DNA from: Ureibacillus acetophenoni
Lineage (GTDB): Bacteria > Bacillota > Bacilli > Bacillales_A > Planococcaceae
Reading direction: 5' to 3'
DNA: 64,000 bases
Assembly: GCF_900220965.1 (NCBI RefSeq)
Contig: NZ_OBQC01000003.1
Coordinates: forward strand, 62,001 to 126,000
The stretch's first letter is position 1, and each line of letters starts with the position of its first letter. Below the pieces are notes generated by a model. That model ran no database searches. It had not been told where the DNA came from and saw only the letters and a list, made by a program, of their open reading frames with translations. This document shows positions 1,275 through 54,164 of the stretch, piece by piece. The translations under genes were made by a program, and so were the position numbers.

Positions 1275-2987
1275 ATGAAACTAAAAACTACATTAACTTT
1301 TCAACTTGGTACAATTATTGCAGGGATTTTAATTGTAATGATTGCTATATCTTCCGTTGCTACATATATCACTGCCTATGACAAATTATATGAAGCTGCA
1401 GGAATAGAAGCTTATGGCTGTGCCAATATTACTACAGGTTTAATTAACACTGATGATTTAAATAAAGCTTTAGATGGAGATGTACAAACGAGTGAACAAC
1501 TTGGTAAAACGATTAATTGGACAACTCAACATAAAAACATCTTTGAATCTCAATATATAGTAGATTTAAATGGGAATCTTGTAGCTTTAGATGATAACTT
1601 GAAAGATAAAGGCTTTGCTGTTGGAGATGCATTCCATGTTGACGAACAAGCGATTGCAACATTGATTGAAACAGGACACCCTACATACTCAGAACCCTAT
1701 GAGTTTGCTGGATTAAAAAGACTTTCAGGATATGCTCCAATATTTGAAGATCATGATTCTTCAAAAGAAATTATTGCAATAAGTGTAATTGACTTTGATG
1801 CAAACATTGTTTCTGAAAGAACTTGGGGAGTTGTAAGCCAAGGAATATTAATTAGTATTATTCCGATGCTACTTGCCGCAGTCGTTACAGCATTATTAAT
1901 TCGTCGCAAAACTAAACCTATTTCAGCGCTTATTCACCAAGCAAAAGAAATTGCTGGTGGAAATTTAATGGTTGGCCCGACTAAGGTTAAAAGTAAAGAT
2001 GAAATTGGTGATTTAGCAAATACGTTAAATCAACTAACATTAAACTTACAAAATATGATAGCAACTATGCGTAAAACATCACATCAATTAACTGAAAATG
2101 CAAATGAAAATGCGAGCTCATTAGAGGAAATGACTCAATCCGTTAAAACTGTTGCAAATAATATTGAAGAAGTTTCTGCTTCGATGACTGATGGGATGAA
2201 TCATGCGGATCAAGCTTCATCCGTATTAATAACACTTGCTGAAGACTTGCAAAACATGAAATTAAAAGCCGATAACACTGTAGAAGTTTCTAATAACACG
2301 ATGCAAATTGCATCTGAAGGTGAAGTTCGCGCTAAAGAAATTAGTAATGATATGGAAAAAATCCGTACTGGATCAAAAGAAGTTAGCGACACTATTCAAC
2401 AACTAGTACAATCAACAACAAAAATTCAGTCAATTACTAATGCCATTTCAGATATCGCTTCCCAAACGAACTTACTTGCACTGAACGCTTCCATTGAAGC
2501 AGCAAGAGCAGGTGAACATGGAAAAGGTTTTGCTGTTGTTGCCGAAGAAGTTCGAAAATTAGCAGAACAATCCAACAAAGAAGTTTCTCAAGTTGGGAAT
2601 TTAGTAAAAGATATTATGGATAAAATTGGGAAAGTTATGATTTCTTCGAATGAAAATGAGAAGTATATTGAAAAAGGCTCTAATACTGTCAAATTAACTG
2701 CAAAAGCACTAAATAATATTTCCATAGCGGTTTCAGACACAGTAAAAGAAATTGCCACAATTTCTGATTTACTTTCGTCTGAAACTGTTAAATCGGATAA
2801 TATTGTTGAGATGATTCAAGAATTTACACATTCCATTCATCAAATTGAAAGTACAATAACAAATATTGCGGCAGCTGCAGAAGAAACTACTGCAGGTATT
2901 GACGAAATTTCTAACAGTTCACAAGAATCCACATTAATGGCTGAAGAACTAGAAAAGTATGTACGCACATTTAAACTAAAAGAGTAA
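1275..2987 (+). CDS. Methyl-accepting chemotaxis protein
   Basis: A membrane chemoreceptor that relays ligand binding to CheA/CheW. The 570-residue protein has a first transmembrane helix at about residues 8-25, an extracellular Cache-like sensor domain to about 175, a second helix at about 176-198, a HAMP domain to about 250, and a long cytoplasmic coiled coil. The conserved hairpin tip includes [20 protein letters not shown] and [19 protein letters not shown] place the start at the ATG at 1275 because AAAGGTGG lies about 10 bp upstream; the open frame extends 11 codons further up without a binding site. The ligand cannot be read from sequence. It stands alone, followed by a terminator. Confidence 0.93.
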
Positions 2988-2996
2988 AAGACAGGG

Positions 2997-3029
2997 AATG
3001 ATCCAATCCAAAGTTGGATCGTTCTTTTT
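2997..3029 (+). terminator. Intrinsic terminator after the chemoreceptor gene
   Basis: A 10-bp stem (AATGATCCAA with TTGGATCGTT, one G-T pair), a 7-nt loop and the run CTTTTTC. It separates the chemoreceptor from the esterase gene that follows. Confidence 0.85.
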
Positions 3030-3071
3030 CTATAAAGGTTAGATTTCAACTTAGTAGGGTAGGGAGTCAAT

Positions 3072-3830
3072 ATGAACGAAATTCATCCAAATGATATATA
3101 CTTAAAAGGGAATAAAGTAGCCATCTTACTGTTACACAGTTTTACTAGTAGTGCCAAAGAGATGCGAGGTCTAGCAAACTATCTTCACGAACACGGGTTT
3201 AGCTGTTATGCTCCAAATTATAAAGGACACGGAGAATCACCTGATAGATTGTTTCAATCCTCAGTAGAAGAAGCTTGGGAAACGGCTGAAGAAGCAATTC
3301 AATTTTTACAAAAAGAAGGTTATGAAAATATAATTGTAGTAGGACAGTCTCTTGGTGGGGTAATGGCTCTAAGACTCGCTTCAAAAAGTATTTGTAAAGC
3401 TATTGTCACCATTTCCGCTCCAATTTTTGAAAGACCTATCGAAACGCTTGAAGACCGTATGAGACATTATACAAATCGATATTACCGTAAGAAAAATAAA
3501 ACAGAAGAATGGATAGAAGTTTATATAAATCAACACTTCCCGCGGCCGGTTCATAAACTTAAGGACTTGCAACAGTTTATTCTAAAAACACAAACTGTTC
3601 TAAATGGGGTTACTAAACCAATTTTATTAGCTAAAGGTGGTATGGACGATCAAGTATTCCAAGAAAGTATCGATTTAATCGAATCATCTGTACAAAGTTC
3701 ATTTAAAAGAAAAACTACATATACAAATAGTGGACATTTAATCACTATGGATAAAGATCGTGAACGATTATTTTTAGATATACAATTATTTGTTGAACAA
3801 GTACTAAAAAGTGAGAAGATATACTCTTAG
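3072..3830 (+). CDS. Carboxylesterase, Est30/YvaK type
   Basis: A soluble alpha/beta-hydrolase of 252 residues that hydrolyses short- to medium-chain carboxylic esters. The nucleophile motif GQSLGG puts the catalytic serine at residue 93. MDDQVF near residues 191-196 supplies the acid, and SGHLITMD puts the histidine at 222. These positions match the Geobacillus Est30 triad (about 94, 193, 223) nearly residue for residue. The oxyanion segment LLLHSFTSSAKEMRGLA is also typical. A ribosome binding site (AGGGAG) precedes the ATG. The gene has its own terminator, shared with the convergent gene. In B. subtilis the relative yvaK sits elsewhere, so the context gives no substrate clue. Confidence 0.88.
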   Translation: MNEIHPNDIYLKGNKVAILLLHSFTSSAKEMRGLANYLHEHGFSCYAPNYKGHGESPDRLFQSSVEEAWETAEEAIQFLQKEGYENIIVVGQSLGGVMALRLASKSICKAIVTISAPIFERPIETLEDRMRHYTNRYYRKKNKTEEWIEVYINQHFPRPVHKLKDLQQFILKTQTVLNGVTKPILLAKGGMDDQVFQESIDLIESSVQSSFKRKTTYTNSGHLITMDKDRERLFLDIQLFVEQVLKSEKIYS

Positions 3831-49280: not shown

Positions 49281-49319
49281 AAAAGAAGTGTGATCACTTA
49301 GAATCACACTTCTTTTTTT
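49281..49319. terminator. Bidirectional terminator
   Basis: AAAAGAAGTGTGAT pairs perfectly with ATCACACTTCTTTT, then more Ts, between the HTH/TPR gene and the convergent C39-like gene. Confidence 0.92.
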
Positions 49320-50346
49320 ATAGTATTGCCATTGCATGTGAGCCAAGGGATTTATACGTACTAAAGAATACATTCTCATCAATTGTTTCATATCCAGAAA
49401 GTGGGTTCATAACAGTTACTTTTCCATCAGCATAACCAATTAATACAACCGCGTGCAAATTCATAAAAATTGGGTGTTTTTTATTTGTTCCTTCAATTAC
49501 CCAATGACCATGAGTTCTAGCTTGTTTATAGTCTATAGTAGCCCATGTTAACACAGGTACACCAGAGTTCACATAGGATAAAATTTCTTCTCTAGAAGAT
49601 TGACTTAAATTTAACGCTTTAAAATTACTATTATTTTCAAACAAAACTTGATTCGCTACTTCTATAATTGGTTCGGCATATACATAATAACCACCATCTT
49701 TTTTAGAAGGATCACCTGCATATGAAACATATGGATCAGGGCCGTAAAGTTTATTTGCTTTCTTTGTGACTGGTGTCGTTGGTAGATAGTCATTTGCTAA
49801 TGTCATTTTATCGACTTCAATACCATAATAATTCATAATCGCTGTCAATGACGTTATTTCACAACCATTTGGGAGTTCCGGATTTTGCTTAACTATTGGA
49901 ACAGCTAAATTATCTGAATTTGCATTGAATGTTTCTATTGTTAAAACAGGTTCATTCGGATTGAAAACAAATTTTTCTCTTGATTGTTCCGAAAGTTCGC
50001 CTGTTAGCTCTATCTTATAAATAACTACCTCGTATGGTTTATCTGGCTCAACCATGTCAAATGTCGCTTTTCCGTCTTCAGTTACTGTCTCTGTCGCGAT
50101 TTTTTCACCAGTCTCAAAATCAAAAAGAGCGACTGAAACATTTTTCACACTTGTCTCGCTGGAAAATTCGACAGTATGAATTGTCAAAGCGTTATTGCTT
50201 ACGGGTTGTTCTGCTGACATTTGTTTACTATAAACTTTTGGTTGCTCATTTTTTATCGTATGTTCATTGGAACTGCAACCAAAAAGAATAACCGTGCAAG
50301 ATAAAGGTAATATTAATTTTGTTACGAAATTAGTTTTACCTAGCAA
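49318..50346 (-). CDS. C39-like peptidase lipoprotein
   Basis: A 342-residue lipoprotein (lipobox LFGC, Cys24) with two parts. Residues about 50-145 form a beta-rich Ig/SpaA-like domain (VSVALFDFETGEKIATETV). The C-terminal half is a papain-like C39_2 domain with the nucleophile in NPELPNGCEITSLTAIMNYYG and the histidine in NLHAVVLIGYADGKVTVMNP. The family is widespread in Bacillales and may cleave or bind cell-surface peptides; the substrate is unknown. It starts at a TTG with AAAGGATG about 13 bp upstream. Confidence 0.82.
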   Translation of the reverse strand: MLGKTNFVTKLILPLSCTVILFGCSSNEHTIKNEQPKVYSKQMSAEQPVSNNALTIHTVEFSSETSVKNVSVALFDFETGEKIATETVTEDGKATFDMVEPDKPYEVVIYKIELTGELSEQSREKFVFNPNEPVLTIETFNANSDNLAVPIVKQNPELPNGCEITSLTAIMNYYGIEVDKMTLANDYLPTTPVTKKANKLYGPDPYVSYAGDPSKKDGGYYVYAEPIIEVANQVLFENNSNFKALNLSQSSREEILSYVNSGVPVLTWATIDYKQARTHGHWVIEGTNKKHPIFMNLHAVVLIGYADGKVTVMNPLSGYETIDENVFFSTYKSLGSHAMAIL

Positions 50347-50559
50347 TTAAAATGCACATCCTTTAATTCATAATCACATGATTCAAACATATTGTCTGCA
50401 TAGTTCTAAAAACTATACGGATGTCAAAATATAGATAATCTTATTTTAATCCATTAATCGAATAGAGTAATAGTATTTAATCTAAATAGAGCAAAATAAA
50501 AAAACAAACTTGGACAAAACCATCCTTTAAAACTGAGAGCGGATCGAATTTGATATTAA

Positions 50560-50747
50560 AATAACGGTAGAATCTCCCGTTATTTATAGAATTAGGACTT
50601 TTTTAGGGAATATAAGAGTAAATTTTCCTCTTATTCTAAGAAAAGCACCTCATTTTCGCTTCTTTTAAGCAAATAAGAGTAATTTCTCCCTCTATTTAAG
50701 CGATTTTTCGGACTTTTTACTAATTAAGGGGAATTTCTCCTCTTATT
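50560..50747. repeat. Cluster of four 25-bp palindromic repeats
   Basis: Four 25-bp units start at 50560, 50611, 50672 and 50723. Each has 8-bp arms around a 9-bp centre, with consensus AATAAGAG-tarawttyc-CTCTTATT; the first is AATAACGG/CCGTTATT. The units are 51, 61 and 51 bp apart. Units 1-2 and 3-4 share GGACTTTTT in the spacer, so the set looks like an old 112-bp tandem duplication. Arms can pair but there are no consistent T-runs. Confidence 0.65.
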
Positions 50748-50858
50748 ATTAAGTGAAATTCTGCCACGAAAGTTTGACGGAAATATCACCCAGTATAGAT
50801 ATTTTATATACTTATGGCGGTAAAAGAGAATAACAGGAAAAATTACTAAATAAACGAT

Positions 50859-50892
50859 AAAAGTGAAATCGCAGTGCCGATTTCACTTTTTT
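50859..50892. terminator. Terminator of yfkAB
   Basis: AAAAGTGAAATCG pairs perfectly with CGATTTCACTTTT around a 6-nt loop. It lies just past the yfkAB stop codon on the minus strand and can act both ways. Confidence 0.88.
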
Positions 50893-50929
50893 GTTATTCA
50901 TCTAAGCAATTTTGTATCAGCCTCAAGAT

Positions 50930-52042
50930 TTATAATTTAGCACTACCACTATCAAATTTTGTGTCTTTGTAATACATGTTTTTCACTAATACATTTGGTC
51001 CTAAACATTTTACAGCTGGACAGTGACAATTTAGTGATTTTGCTAAATCAGTGTCTAGCCACTTATCAAAGATTTCAGGTAAAGAATCATTTTGTATGTT
51101 ACCAAGAGCTGGAGTATCACCAAAGTCAGTAACAATTACATCACCAGTAAAAATATTGATGTTTAAACGAGAGCGACCATCAGGATCATTACGTAATGTT
51201 ACGTTTTTAGATTCTCTTAATCTTTTTAATAATGTTTGGTCTTCCTCGTTCAAACTGCAAGGATAGAAGGGAAGTGTACCAAATAACATCCAAGTATTTT
51301 CATCTCGTATATCAAGTAGATGATGAATCGCCTCACGTGTTTCCTCTAATGATAATGCAGTTAGTTGTGATGCGAAATCAGAAGGGTACATTGGGTGAAT
51401 TTCGTGACGTGCACACTTCATTTCATTGACAATTTGATTATGAATATGCTCAATATATGGAACTGTATTCTTATTAAGCATTGTTTCAGCTGATACCATC
51501 ACACCTTGTTCTGACAGCATACGAGAATTTTCAATCATTCGATTAAAGAGTGCTGCACGTTGGTCAAATGTCGGTTTTCTTTCCATCATTGCAAATCCCG
51601 TTTCGACAAATTCCTCAACCGTTCCCCAGTTATGTGAAATATGTAATACATCTAAATAAGGAGCTATTTCTAAATAACGGTCTCCATCTAGTGTTAAGTT
51701 TGAATTCATTTGTGTACGAACGCCGCGATCATGTGCGTATTTTAAAATCGGTTTCACGTAATTTTGCACTGATTTTTTACTTAGCATCGGTTCGCCACCT
51801 GTAATACTAAGGGTTCTTAAGTTTGGTATTTCATCTAGTCTTTTAATGAGAAGCTCTAAAGGTAAAGCAACAGGATCTTTCGTTTGTAATGTATATCCAA
51901 CTGCGCAATGAGCACATCTCATATTACATAAATTTGTTGTAGTAAACTCGATATTGGAAAGTGTTAACTTTCCATGTTGTTCAATATCCATATAGGCTTC
52001 CCAAGGATCGTAATGAGGGGTAAGCTTATCTAACGTATTCAT
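50930..52042 (-). CDS. yfkAB: Radical SAM/CxCxxxxC protein YfkAB
   Basis: A 370-residue radical SAM enzyme. The cluster motif CNMRCAHC (CxxxCxxC, about residues 39-46) is followed by LRTLSITGGEPMLS. The C-terminal signature HCPAVKC, preceded by another Cys, gives CxCxxxxC (near 345), the hallmark of YfkAB, which probably binds a second cluster. Its reaction is unknown. The gene is intact here, in one frame. GGAAGT precedes the ATG. Monocistronic. Confidence 0.92.
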   Translation of the reverse strand: MNTLDKLTPHYDPWEAYMDIEQHGKLTLSNIEFTTTNLCNMRCAHCAVGYTLQTKDPVALPLELLIKRLDEIPNLRTLSITGGEPMLSKKSVQNYVKPILKYAHDRGVRTQMNSNLTLDGDRYLEIAPYLDVLHISHNWGTVEEFVETGFAMMERKPTFDQRAALFNRMIENSRMLSEQGVMVSAETMLNKNTVPYIEHIHNQIVNEMKCARHEIHPMYPSDFASQLTALSLEETREAIHHLLDIRDENTWMLFGTLPFYPCSLNEEDQTLLKRLRESKNVTLRNDPDGRSRLNINIFTGDVIVTDFGDTPALGNIQNDSLPEIFDKWLDTDLAKSLNCHCPAVKCLGPNVLVKNMYYKDTKFDSGSAKL

Positions 52043-52229: not shown

Positions 52230-54164
52230 TTATGAATCCACTTCATCTAAAGTAGTCGTTATAAAACTATTATTTTCACTATAAAAGACTTCACCAAACT
52301 TATTTTCAATAATAGTTTTCTCGAGTTTTATTTTTGAATAGTTCATCGCTTGAACATTGTAGCGGTATTTATCATTTTTAATAATACTGTCAGATACATA
52401 GATCGCAGAACGATTTTGGGCCAATAAATCAGATTGATGTCCATCTGCCATTTGAACACCATCTAAGTCAACAGTAGATTCAAAATCAATCCAAATTTGA
52501 GGTTTTAAATGCTTCGCAATAAAACTGTCTCGAATAAATACCTCGCTATGATTTTGAATGAGCAGCGCATTTCGTTTACCTTCTAACAATTCACTATTAT
52601 TGATAATGAGGGAACTATCATTAACTACAATTTGCGCTAGAGCATGATTAGAAATTTGACTGTTTATGAAGTTAGAAATAGAATTTCTAGTTATTTTTAA
52701 TCCGTAAGACCCGCCATCGAAAATTTGACAATGTTCAAAAACTGCTGTGGAATGATCACTTATTTCAATTTGCACCTGGTCGCAGTTATAAAATTTACTA
52801 TCAAAGATGAAAACTTCACTTTTGTTCACTGCAAATATACTTTTTCCGTTAAATAGCTCACTTTGAGACATTGTAACGATCACATTCGTTTTACACGCTA
52901 TGTGGGGCATGTAATTATCGTAGAATCTTGAGTATTCAATATCTGCGGAAGATTTCTCAAATGCTAAAATTCCATTTCCTTTATTGTCCATTACTTCACT
53001 TTCATATAAATTTAACTGGGCACTAATAATTGTTACAGCCGAATTTTCATGTTTTGATAGTTCACATTTTACAAGGGAGGCACTTCCTTCTTTATCAACA
53101 AAAATTCCAATATAGTAGCCTTCTTTAATAATACATTGCTTCATGGAACAAATGGATTTGTCGGTAACATAGATTTGTGATAGTTTATGATATTTAATGA
53201 TTGTTTCGTTAAAATTGGCAATTGCTTCTTCTTTTAACTTTACGCCAATTGCATCTCCAGAATGGATGTGGCATTGTTCTATGTTTGCCCGGGATTTGTT
53301 TGAGATGATCATGTTTTCTTTAGGGTGATGGGAAATTTCACTATAAGTAATAGTTGCTTCTGTAAAATCAGTCATATAAATGCCAGATTCTTTACCATTT
53401 TGGATTATGCAATGATGTCCATTAAAAGTACATTTTTCGAGCCATATTTGTGGTAGTTGATGAAATCTTAACGTACTACTTGAAAGGGAGATTTCTGCCT
53501 CATTGCAGCCGTAAATGCCATTACCATTTCCGCGTTCTAAAACACTTCCGAAATCCTCAAATTCGGACTCATCGACAATGATTTGAGTTCCAGAATGTTG
53601 GTGAAAATGGTTTTTCTCTGAATACAGTTTGGAGCCGTCTTTTAGCCAAATTCCATGTTTCGCATTCGTTAACTCACACTGTTCCATAATTGCCTCAGAT
53701 TCTTGGATAAGAAGTTGCATTTTTCCGTTAGAATGAAAAATACAGTTCTTGATAAATGCTTTTGAGTGATTCATAAGCGCAATCGCGACTTCTTTTGCAT
53801 TTCTAAATTCGCAGTTTTCTAGATGGACAACACCTTCATCGACCGATAACAGAGCCTCAGATTTAACCCCAATGAGTTTACAGTTTTCTAATTTTAAATT
53901 TCCTTCAACAAATATTTGGGAAGTAGGAGAGATCGTTACATTTTGAAGTGTTACTTGAACAGATTTTGGAATGATAAAAATACCTTCCATTACTGTTTCT
54001 TCTTCACCGTTTGCTGAGATTAATACGTCTTTATCAAATTGAATGGATTCTCTATAGATTTTAGGTGATAATTTGATTTGTTCTCCTTTTCTTGATTTTT
54101 GAATGGCACGTCTCATTGTTTTCACGTTTGAAAAAAACGCAGAAAACAGTTTCATGATGGCCAT
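52230..54164 (-). CDS. Large right-handed parallel beta-helix protein
   Basis: A 644-residue protein with no signal peptide or membrane segment. After a NosD-like start (MRRAIQKSRKGEQIKLSPKI, about 17-36) it consists of more than twenty rungs of 22-24 residues, e.g. IYVTDKSICSMKQCIIKEGYYIG. From about residue 230 onward two rung types alternate: those ending before -QI (PQIWL, SQIYV, AQIVV, PQIWI) and those ending before -GI/-GV/-GL (SGIYM, IGVKL, NGILA, YGLKI). No catalytic residues of pectate lyases are evident. GGAGGGA precedes the ATG. A scaffold or binding role is plausible; function unknown. Confidence 0.85.
   Translation of the reverse strand: MAIMKLFSAFFSNVKTMRRAIQKSRKGEQIKLSPKIYRESIQFDKDVLISANGEEETVMEGIFIIPKSVQVTLQNVTISPTSQIFVEGNLKLENCKLIGVKSEALLSVDEGVVHLENCEFRNAKEVAIALMNHSKAFIKNCIFHSNGKMQLLIQESEAIMEQCELTNAKHGIWLKDGSKLYSEKNHFHQHSGTQIIVDESEFEDFGSVLERGNGNGIYGCNEAEISLSSSTLRFHQLPQIWLEKCTFNGHHCIIQNGKESGIYMTDFTEATITYSEISHHPKENMIISNKSRANIEQCHIHSGDAIGVKLKEEAIANFNETIIKYHKLSQIYVTDKSICSMKQCIIKEGYYIGIFVDKEGSASLVKCELSKHENSAVTIISAQLNLYESEVMDNKGNGILAFEKSSADIEYSRFYDNYMPHIACKTNVIVTMSQSELFNGKSIFAVNKSEVFIFDSKFYNCDQVQIEISDHSTAVFEHCQIFDGGSYGLKITRNSISNFINSQISNHALAQIVVNDSSLIINNSELLEGKRNALLIQNHSEVFIRDSFIAKHLKPQIWIDFESTVDLDGVQMADGHQSDLLAQNRSAIYVSDSIIKNDKYRYNVQAMNYSKIKLEKTIIENKFGEVFYSENNSFITTTLDEVDS

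Follow-up and report, generated by a model that had tools for sequence, protein, structure and literature searches.

A palindrome quartet in an intergenic gap looks like one copy of a mobile repeat family, so far unrecognised, that has a dedicated predicted nuclease

The palindrome quartet occupies a 583-bp gap between a C39-peptidase gene and a radical SAM gene, within the window (the whole 64-kb stretch of DNA analysed, positions 62001-126000 of contig 24 in a genome of 3,977,008 bases on 39 contigs, all of which was searched). The region contains the following features:

49318-50346, minus strand: gene for a Peptidase_C39_2 domain protein with a lipoprotein-like start
50526-50813, no strand assigned: greatest extent of subfamily-A homology (blastn of the window copy against the 7 other A copies of the genome, 81-83% identity)
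50556-50749, minus strand: complete tetrad, matching 194 of 194 positions of tetrad model R1 at 175.9 bits, the window tetrad being itself one of R1's 41 training rows
50560-50584, no strand assigned: palindrome unit 1, AATAACGGTAGAATCTCCCGTTATT
50611-50635, no strand assigned: palindrome unit 2
50672-50696, no strand assigned: palindrome unit 3, with asymmetric arms common to unit 3 of subfamily A
50723-50747, no strand assigned: palindrome unit 4
50859-50890, no strand assigned: 13-bp inverted repeat AAAAGTGAAATCG/CGATTTCACTTTT, resembling a terminator, following the radical SAM gene and outside the tetrad
50930-52042, minus strand: gene for a radical SAM protein with a YfkB-like domain
52230-54164, minus strand: gene next to the radical SAM gene, encoding a 644-aa protein with right-handed beta-helix repeats

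The homologous stretch common to subfamily-A copies is about 290 bp, and, read on the minus strand, the window tetrad runs in the same sense as tetrads do with respect to the nuclease gene described below. The units lie exactly where the first-pass annotation had placed them, at 50560, 50611, 50672 and 50723 with spacings of 51, 61 and 51 bp. All four palindromes that it described stand, but they are imperfect (AATARNSGGA-5-TCCSNYTATT) with conserved mismatches, unit 3 being the most affected. The compensatory arm change it had pointed to is real and general: across 41 tetrads, 78.8% of pair cells were paired, and cells changed on both sides numbered 80 versus 44.9 ± 5.8 after shuffling (reached by 0 of 500 shuffles) and 13-36 when slid. 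Its proposed origin, a diverged 112-bp tandem duplication, was unsupported: the 51/61/51 arrangement is common to other subfamilies and genera, so a recent duplication is not needed to account for the geometry. The motif GGACTTTTT is indeed common to spacers 1 and 3 but is a trait of one subfamily. We also rejected dyad symmetry of the whole tetrad, in which units and spacing are symmetric but spacers are asymmetric.

Searching the genome for the unit consensus with up to three mismatches revealed 71 forward and 68 reverse matches, compared with 1 and 3 for a reversed control. Palindromes often match both strands, so these counts do not represent 139 separate units. Around the matches we delineated about 25 arrays in 20 loci, with at least 25 tetrads in the genome and no further unit clusters elsewhere within the 64-kb window. 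Nearly all arrays were quartets with spacings of 51, 61 and then 51 or 52 bp, the exceptions being one 31-bp step at L047 and a second, interrupted array at L044. Spacers defined four subfamilies in an alignment read by eye, with palindrome positions constant throughout, and placed the window copy in subfamily A. Array contexts could be scored in 24 of 25 cases and were all intergenic, although one array was overlapped by a doubtful 93-aa open frame. These 24 contexts were convergent in 12 cases, codirectional in 10 and divergent in 2, which represents an excess of convergent gaps over those in the window (12 of 24 versus 3 of 32; Fisher 0.0016).

Two kinds of variant were seen among the arrays. 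At L051:1431-1851, an expanded tetrad comprises at least seven units at 52-bp steps, with the spacers repeated. At L041, L044 and L052, elements of about 430 bp with 17-bp terminal inverted repeats (GAGACTGTCGATTAACT type) each contain an A-type tetrad and were each apparently inserted at the palindrome centre of another tetrad; 5-bp duplications are apparent for the L044 and L041 elements, while L052 is unclear. These are possibly an insertion-sequence-like element that targets tetrads.

We compared the window locus with six relatives in which the C39-peptidase and radical SAM genes are also side by side. The gap between the two genes was about 139 to 203 bp in five of them (G010, G018, G002, G013 and G011) and about 470 bp in G015, and none of the six gaps contained a palindrome unit (best, 6 to 9 mismatches versus 0 in the window). 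With the tetrad absent from all six syntenic relatives, the window copy is, on comparative grounds, an insertion. In G018 and G002 the syntenic gap was empty, yet many tetrads occurred elsewhere. A second empty syntenic site was found for the tetrad between rnr and smpB (L043), which is missing in the nearest relative, G010, where about 260 bp are absent; a 14-bp stretch of its left flank recurs imperfectly at the right. The nearest relative yielded no clean empty site for the L053 and L045 loci. When 120-bp flanks of 23 tetrads were tested, most lacked inverted repeats or duplications beyond those of shuffled sequences. Inverted repeats never reached by 60 shuffles occurred at three tetrads (L038, L041 and L043) and those of L048 were reached by 3, although these flanks are too short for the terminal repeats of L044 and L052. 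Among nine genomes, the nearest neighbour of a tetrad, excluding its own locus, came from the same genome in 61 of 85 cases (72%), compared with 21% expected and a maximum of 41% by shuffled labels, for loci that were picked by rank and not at random; allowing own-locus neighbours gave 83.5%, a figure inflated by tandem copies. Of the three readings in the first-pass annotation, that of REP-like elements comes nearest to these patterns, since tetrads are scattered between genes and are missing where relatives have the syntenic site.

Outside the window, the genome contains two copies, and only two, of a gene for a nuclease-winged-helix protein, at L045:1648-2310 (minus strand, contig 23; hereafter copy 1) and L039:517-1182 (minus strand, contig 11; copy 2). 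The encoded proteins are 88% identical, and at both loci the stop codon touches or overlaps a tetrad. The protein, of 220 aa, combines a predicted Vsr/DUF559-like PD-(D/E)XK nuclease domain with a winged helix. Pfam searches returned weak DUF559 and MTES_1575 matches at the N terminus and weak winged-helix matches at the C terminus. Among 55 homologues, 43 matched DUF559 and 37 matched MTES_1575 at E 0.01 or better, although these matches are partial (best E, 1e-4 and 1.3e-6) and both own copies fall below the DUF559 cut-off. An AlphaFold2 model of the Lysinibacillus composti homologue, built from the alignment of 55, reached a pLDDT of 85.1 and a pTM of 0.64. A fold search with the whole protein was filled by winged helices, so the N-terminal 145 residues of this homologue were modelled alone (pLDDT, 90.0). 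Their best fold match was 3hrl, a putative endonuclease-like protein (Foldseek E 3.5e-3; VIA Z 8.1, rmsd 2.6 over 84 residues), and comparison with 3r3p, the catalytic domain of I-Bth0305I, gave a VIA Z of 7.6 with an rmsd of 3.7 over 88 residues; these scores are moderate, and Z values under about 8 can be common. The N-terminal model thus appears to adopt a Vsr-type PD-(D/E)XK fold, while the C-terminal domain resembled winged helices of the MarR and Z-alpha types (Z of about 10). All 55 homologues have E57, D60, D69, D84 and H89, and nearly all have E82; in a wider set of 19, E82 was invariant and D84 varied. Judging from this conservation, the weak domain matches and analogy, these acidic and histidine residues may be catalytic. 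A role in anti-phage defence was considered and rejected, with three homologues matching PADLOC only at E 0.0035 or worse; against PHROGs, the best E was 3.5e-5, to families of unknown function.

The link between gene and tetrad extends well beyond this genome. Scanning 84,980 species genomes revealed at least 579 relatives of the protein, of which the best 80 were analysed, and 77 of these best 80 loci had at least 300 readable 3′ bases for a model-free count of TA-anchored hairpins (figures for threshold 6, one of four applied). Hairpins per 303 bp averaged 2.77 downstream of the gene, compared with 0.38 upstream and 0.43 in shuffled downstream sequence, and at least three hairpins were present downstream at 47 of the 77 loci, upstream at 0 and in shuffled sequence at 0.5. 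Requiring strict pairing reduced the counts per locus to 0.49, 0.03 and 0.01, respectively, since conserved mismatches caused most units to be missed. At the next looser threshold, steps between successive units were dominated by 51-52 bp (78) and 61-63 bp (49). In a lag spectrum, the leading lags were 51, 112 and 61 in Bacillaceae and 62, 63, 113 and 52 in Paenibacillaceae and others.

We also applied tetrad model R1, which comprises 21 own-genome tetrads and 20 gene-adjacent tetrads from other genera. The model placed a tetrad 3′ of the gene at 53 of 56 Bacillaceae-type homologue loci, in all 53 cases on the gene's strand, but R1 matches at loci that supplied training rows are not independent. 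Two loci are counted twice among the 56, leaving 51 of 54 distinct loci with a 3′ tetrad, and a stricter filter, which discarded one weak match and any tetrad overlapping the stop codon by 25 bp, gave 49 of 56. Measured from the stop codon's end, the tetrad began at -30 to +1 bp in 46 of the 53. No 3′ model tetrad was found at L064, L097 or L106, the last of which has 399 N in its next 600 bases. An additional 5′ tetrad was present at 18 of the 56 loci, on the gene's strand in 17.

Alignment of L045 to nine other gene loci indicated how far this arrangement extends as a unit. In four of these comparisons homology stopped no more than 10 bp from the tetrad's outer edge, and in the other five it ended within the tetrad or the gene. 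Towards the 5′ end, three of the nine remained homologous as far as 2588-2603 and the second own copy as far as 2588; a promoter-like TTGACA...TATTAA lies there. These limits point to a source unit of about 1.15 kb consisting of promoter, long leader, gene and tetrad, and the promoter and leader may be part of a moving unit. The promoter-like TTGACA/TATTAA and a leader of about 240 nt precede the nuclease gene (L045:2310-2600 and the 5′ regions of homologue loci) and are partly conserved among genera; the leader could be a regulatory RNA.

Other palindromes were encountered in related settings. Downstream of the homologue at L080 is a different array, AACGGTATAAATCCCGT, with steps of about 52 bp, and downstream of that in Paenibacillus oryzisoli (L161) is an array of GTTAGTGATGTTTTTCATCACTAA with 62-63-bp steps. 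In G010, a different palindromic unit, AAAAGGTCTTCATACGGGTGATGATGACCTTTT, forms a tandem array after the aminotransferase gene (L342, about 2760-3280), where G000 has nuclease copy 1.

Gene and tetrads also co-occurred across 101 related genomes, 12 of which encoded a full-length homologue (any match, 19) and 12 of which contained tetrad-model matches. Within the same genus, all six gene-bearing genomes had at least 25 tetrad matches; of the 19 gene-less genomes, 16 had 0 tetrads, two had 2 and one (76% complete) had 15 (Fisher 4e-5 at a threshold of 10). In G004, a gene-less genome with 2 tetrads, 13 codons of a lost gene copy (residues 206-218, near its end) remain directly before a tetrad. 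More distant gene-bearing genomes had no R1 matches (G072, G062 and G098) or one (G092), and the palindromes behind their genes differ in sequence. The palindrome belonging to G072, which encodes three homologues, occurred at 82 forward and 97 reverse places in that genome, compared with 0 in ten other genomes and 1 in G079. Its steps were 41 bp in 86 of 100 cases, 51 or 52 bp in 10 and 40 or 42 bp in 4 (15 stretches, with one step of 153 left out).

The sequence of the half-sites varies together with that of the protein. Each tetrad contains eight half-sites, and at one base those of a given locus mostly share either C or G. Removing duplicates, broken frames and poor loci from an initial 49 left 40, each with an unbroken frame and five or more scorable half-sites; 31 of these were C-type, 6 G-type and 3 mixed. 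The most strongly associated protein column was residue 186, in the recognition helix, which was K at 30 of 31 C-type loci and R at 5 of 6 G-type loci; residue 182 was D at 31 of 31 versus 3 of 6, and residue 170 was S at 26 of 31 versus 0 of 6. The D182/K186 pair, which was chosen post hoc, was missing at all 9 loci whose share of G at this base exceeded 30%, and at 1 of the 31 others (L112). In a scan of all columns, the observed maximum was reached by 2 of 300 sets of shuffled labels, while a phylogeny-controlled test using a tree built without the winged helix was not significant (the traits change 9 and 8 times, with one supported pair). The two own copies differ, with copy 1 beside a G-type tetrad (6 G, 1 C) and copy 2 beside a C-type tetrad (1 G, 7 C). 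Two recognition-helix residues appear to go with one half-site base, as far as these alignments indicate. Across arrays and lineages, unit steps fall at 31, 41, 51-52 and 61-63 bp, about one helical turn apart, although this relies on few classes and the 31-bp step occurs once in the own genome. The first-pass suggestion of multi-site binding by one protein gained ground here, as the likely recognition mode of the enzyme encoded beside the tetrads.

With regard to how the gene has spread, Lysinibacillus homologues were intermixed with those of other Bacillaceae and Sporolactobacillus in the gene tree, with modest support, and this mixing of genera suggests transfer between them. Phage or plasmid origin was rejected, as the gene is practically absent from phage, plasmid and viral-contig collections: a homologue was found in 0 of 50,697 phage records, in 1 of 72,556 plasmid records (a 2.7-Mb replicon) and at one locus among viral contigs.

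Taking these lines of evidence together, we consider it probable that the quartet is a non-autonomous copy of a REP-like tetrad repeat served by a dedicated Vsr/DUF559-like nuclease-winged-helix enzyme. Under this model, source loci would carry the enzyme gene immediately upstream of a tetrad, and a winged-helix dimer would bind the two half-sites (consensus AATARNSGGA) of each palindrome. With units spaced by whole helical turns, several dimers could assemble on one face of the DNA and bring their nuclease domains together. The nuclease might then nick or cut at or beside the tetrad, after which repair or replication would spread copies to sites between genes, occasionally taking the gene along. 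The observation made by the first-pass annotation was confirmed, and its interpretation was partly supported. More tentatively, and with somewhat less than an even balance of belief, we propose a class of selfish DNA in Bacillota that has gone unrecognised, in which a stand-alone Vsr-like nuclease-winged helix reads several duplex palindromes on one helix face and spreads its own site arrays with or without the gene. Enzyme and sites would co-evolve through the recognition helix, so the two 88% identical copies would serve a G-type and a C-type dialect.

The best-surviving alternative is that the protein has been domesticated as a regulator or to structure the chromosome, with the tetrads as operators or anchor sites kept by selection. 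Whole-turn spacings and the preference for convergent gene ends agree with such an array, and the recognition-helix association fits binding sites. However, the site was not kept at either of the two places examined, being absent from the window position in all six relatives and from rnr-smpB in G010, and G002 and G018 lack the window tetrad though they have many elsewhere. Tetrads moreover cluster by genome, and the gene has a patchy distribution and a tree in which genera are mixed; we regard a host function of this kind as unlikely. Still less probable is that tetrads are miniature inverted-repeat transposons (MITEs) derived from an ordinary transposon in which palindromes happen to be present, with the nuclease gene as a passenger. 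The 17-bp terminal inverted repeats of the three 430-bp elements, and the apparent 5-bp duplications of two, agree with this, and L043 has flanking inverted repeats. Against this, clear inverted repeats occurred in only 3 of the 23 tetrads within 120-bp flanks, homology to L045 stops within 10 bp of the tetrad's outer edge in four of nine loci and inside the tetrad or gene in the other five, and a passenger gene leaves unexplained the presence of 3′ tetrads, with matching half-sites, at 53 of 56 loci.

A structured RNA, the remaining reading of the first-pass annotation, would have the tetrad act as a four-hairpin RNA in the 3′ regions of transcripts. Compensatory arm changes and the position of tetrads directly after nuclease-gene stop codons are what one would expect of it. 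Nonetheless, G·U would be acceptable in an RNA stem and A·C should be avoided, whereas mismatches in the gene sense comprised 70 G·T and 78 A·C (p 0.57); with these equally common, there is no preference for one strand or the other to fold on its own. Fold z-scores were weak (-1.41 and -1.75), and Rfam 15 gave ten matches up to E 10 for window positions 50300-51000, the best at E 0.49 and none at the gathering score. The mixed gene orientations around the 24 tetrads also indicate that there is no one transcript arrangement. Together, the spacing classes and equal mismatches favour a protein reading duplex DNA over an RNA hairpin, at the level of sequence comparison, and leave the RNA reading highly improbable. 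Finally, although the unit is AT-rich and its four copies imperfect, chance AT-rich palindromes are refuted by the number of matches relative to the control (71 and 68 versus 1 and 3), by about 25 arrays of nearly all one geometry, and by the same geometry and hairpins behind homologue genes in other genera.

The reading of the tetrads as mobile repeats with a dedicated nuclease can be set against several known systems. A CRISPR array was rejected, as the repeats diverge and the spacers align across dispersed copies. Like MITEs, the small intergenic bcr repeats of Bacillus cereus and the small intergenic BOX and RUP repeats of pneumococcus, tetrads are dispersed, intergenic, non-coding and a few hundred bp long. 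Unlike these, most tetrads have no constant terminal inverted repeats or duplications, and a nuclease gene is linked to them instead of an insertion-sequence transposase. The terminal inverted repeats and fixed-length target duplications of a MITE moved by a DDE transposase were lacking, with the three 430-bp elements as exceptions. The encoded proteins resemble DUF559/REase_MTES_1575 proteins, with domain matches in most homologues and 3hrl as the best fold match, but differ in the weak and partial nature of these matches, in the C-terminal winged helix and in the linked repeats. The predicted fold of the N-terminal domain is shared with Vsr-like (EDxHD) homing endonucleases such as I-Bth0305I. 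In contrast to enzymes of that type, the gene at the loci read is free-standing, with a promoter-like sequence and a 3′ palindrome array, and many dispersed non-coding copies exist.

To our knowledge, dispersed palindromes with a dedicated enzyme have been recognised only for RAYT transposases, and no description of the present repeats or protein was found in the open-licence PMC literature, in line with the first-pass annotation, which knew of no described family with this pattern. The closest parallel is with REP/REPIN sequences and their RAYTs ('REPtrons'). These are likewise short intergenic palindromes in many copies, frequently arranged in ordered groups, and the chromosome encodes a dedicated enzyme whose gene adjoins its own repeat. 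As in that system, repeat sequence differs from genome to genome and the enzyme gene is nearly absent from plasmid and phage collections. The tetrad flanks its enzyme gene (3′ in 53 of 56 loci, 5′ in 18 of 56) and has dispersed, gene-less intergenic copies (about 25 arrays versus the gene at 2 loci). RAYTs are HUH/Y1 tyrosine transposases, and the stem of their repeats bears a GTAG or GGAG tag at its foot, features drawn in part from PMC3733652. By contrast, the tetrad enzyme is a predicted Vsr/DUF559-like PD-(D/E)XK nuclease with a winged helix and not an HUH/Y1 transposase; the units have no GTAG or GGAG tag, their feet being AATA... and ...TATT with GGA inside, next to the loop; and the repeat is a tetrad of 51/61/51 bp. 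PF01797 (HUH/Y1) was found neither in the two own copies nor in 25 of the 27 Pfam families matched by the 55 homologues. A RAYT/IS200 origin was rejected, as the genome's only PF01797 gene (L055) has no unit nearby (best, 4 mismatches in its 3.3-kb locus).

Tetrads thus seem to work like REP/RAYT systems but are not members of them, the enzyme class being unrelated. If our reading is correct, it bears on at least 579 protein relatives, with at least three hairpins directly behind the gene at 47 of 77 of the best 80 loci. It would assign a role to proteins so far known only as DUF559-like and account for repeats in genomes of Paenibacillus and Bacillaceae. It would also provide a natural experiment in the joint change of a nuclease and its DNA sites. 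A second, unrelated class of enzyme would then be doing in Bacillota the job that RAYTs do for REP sequences.
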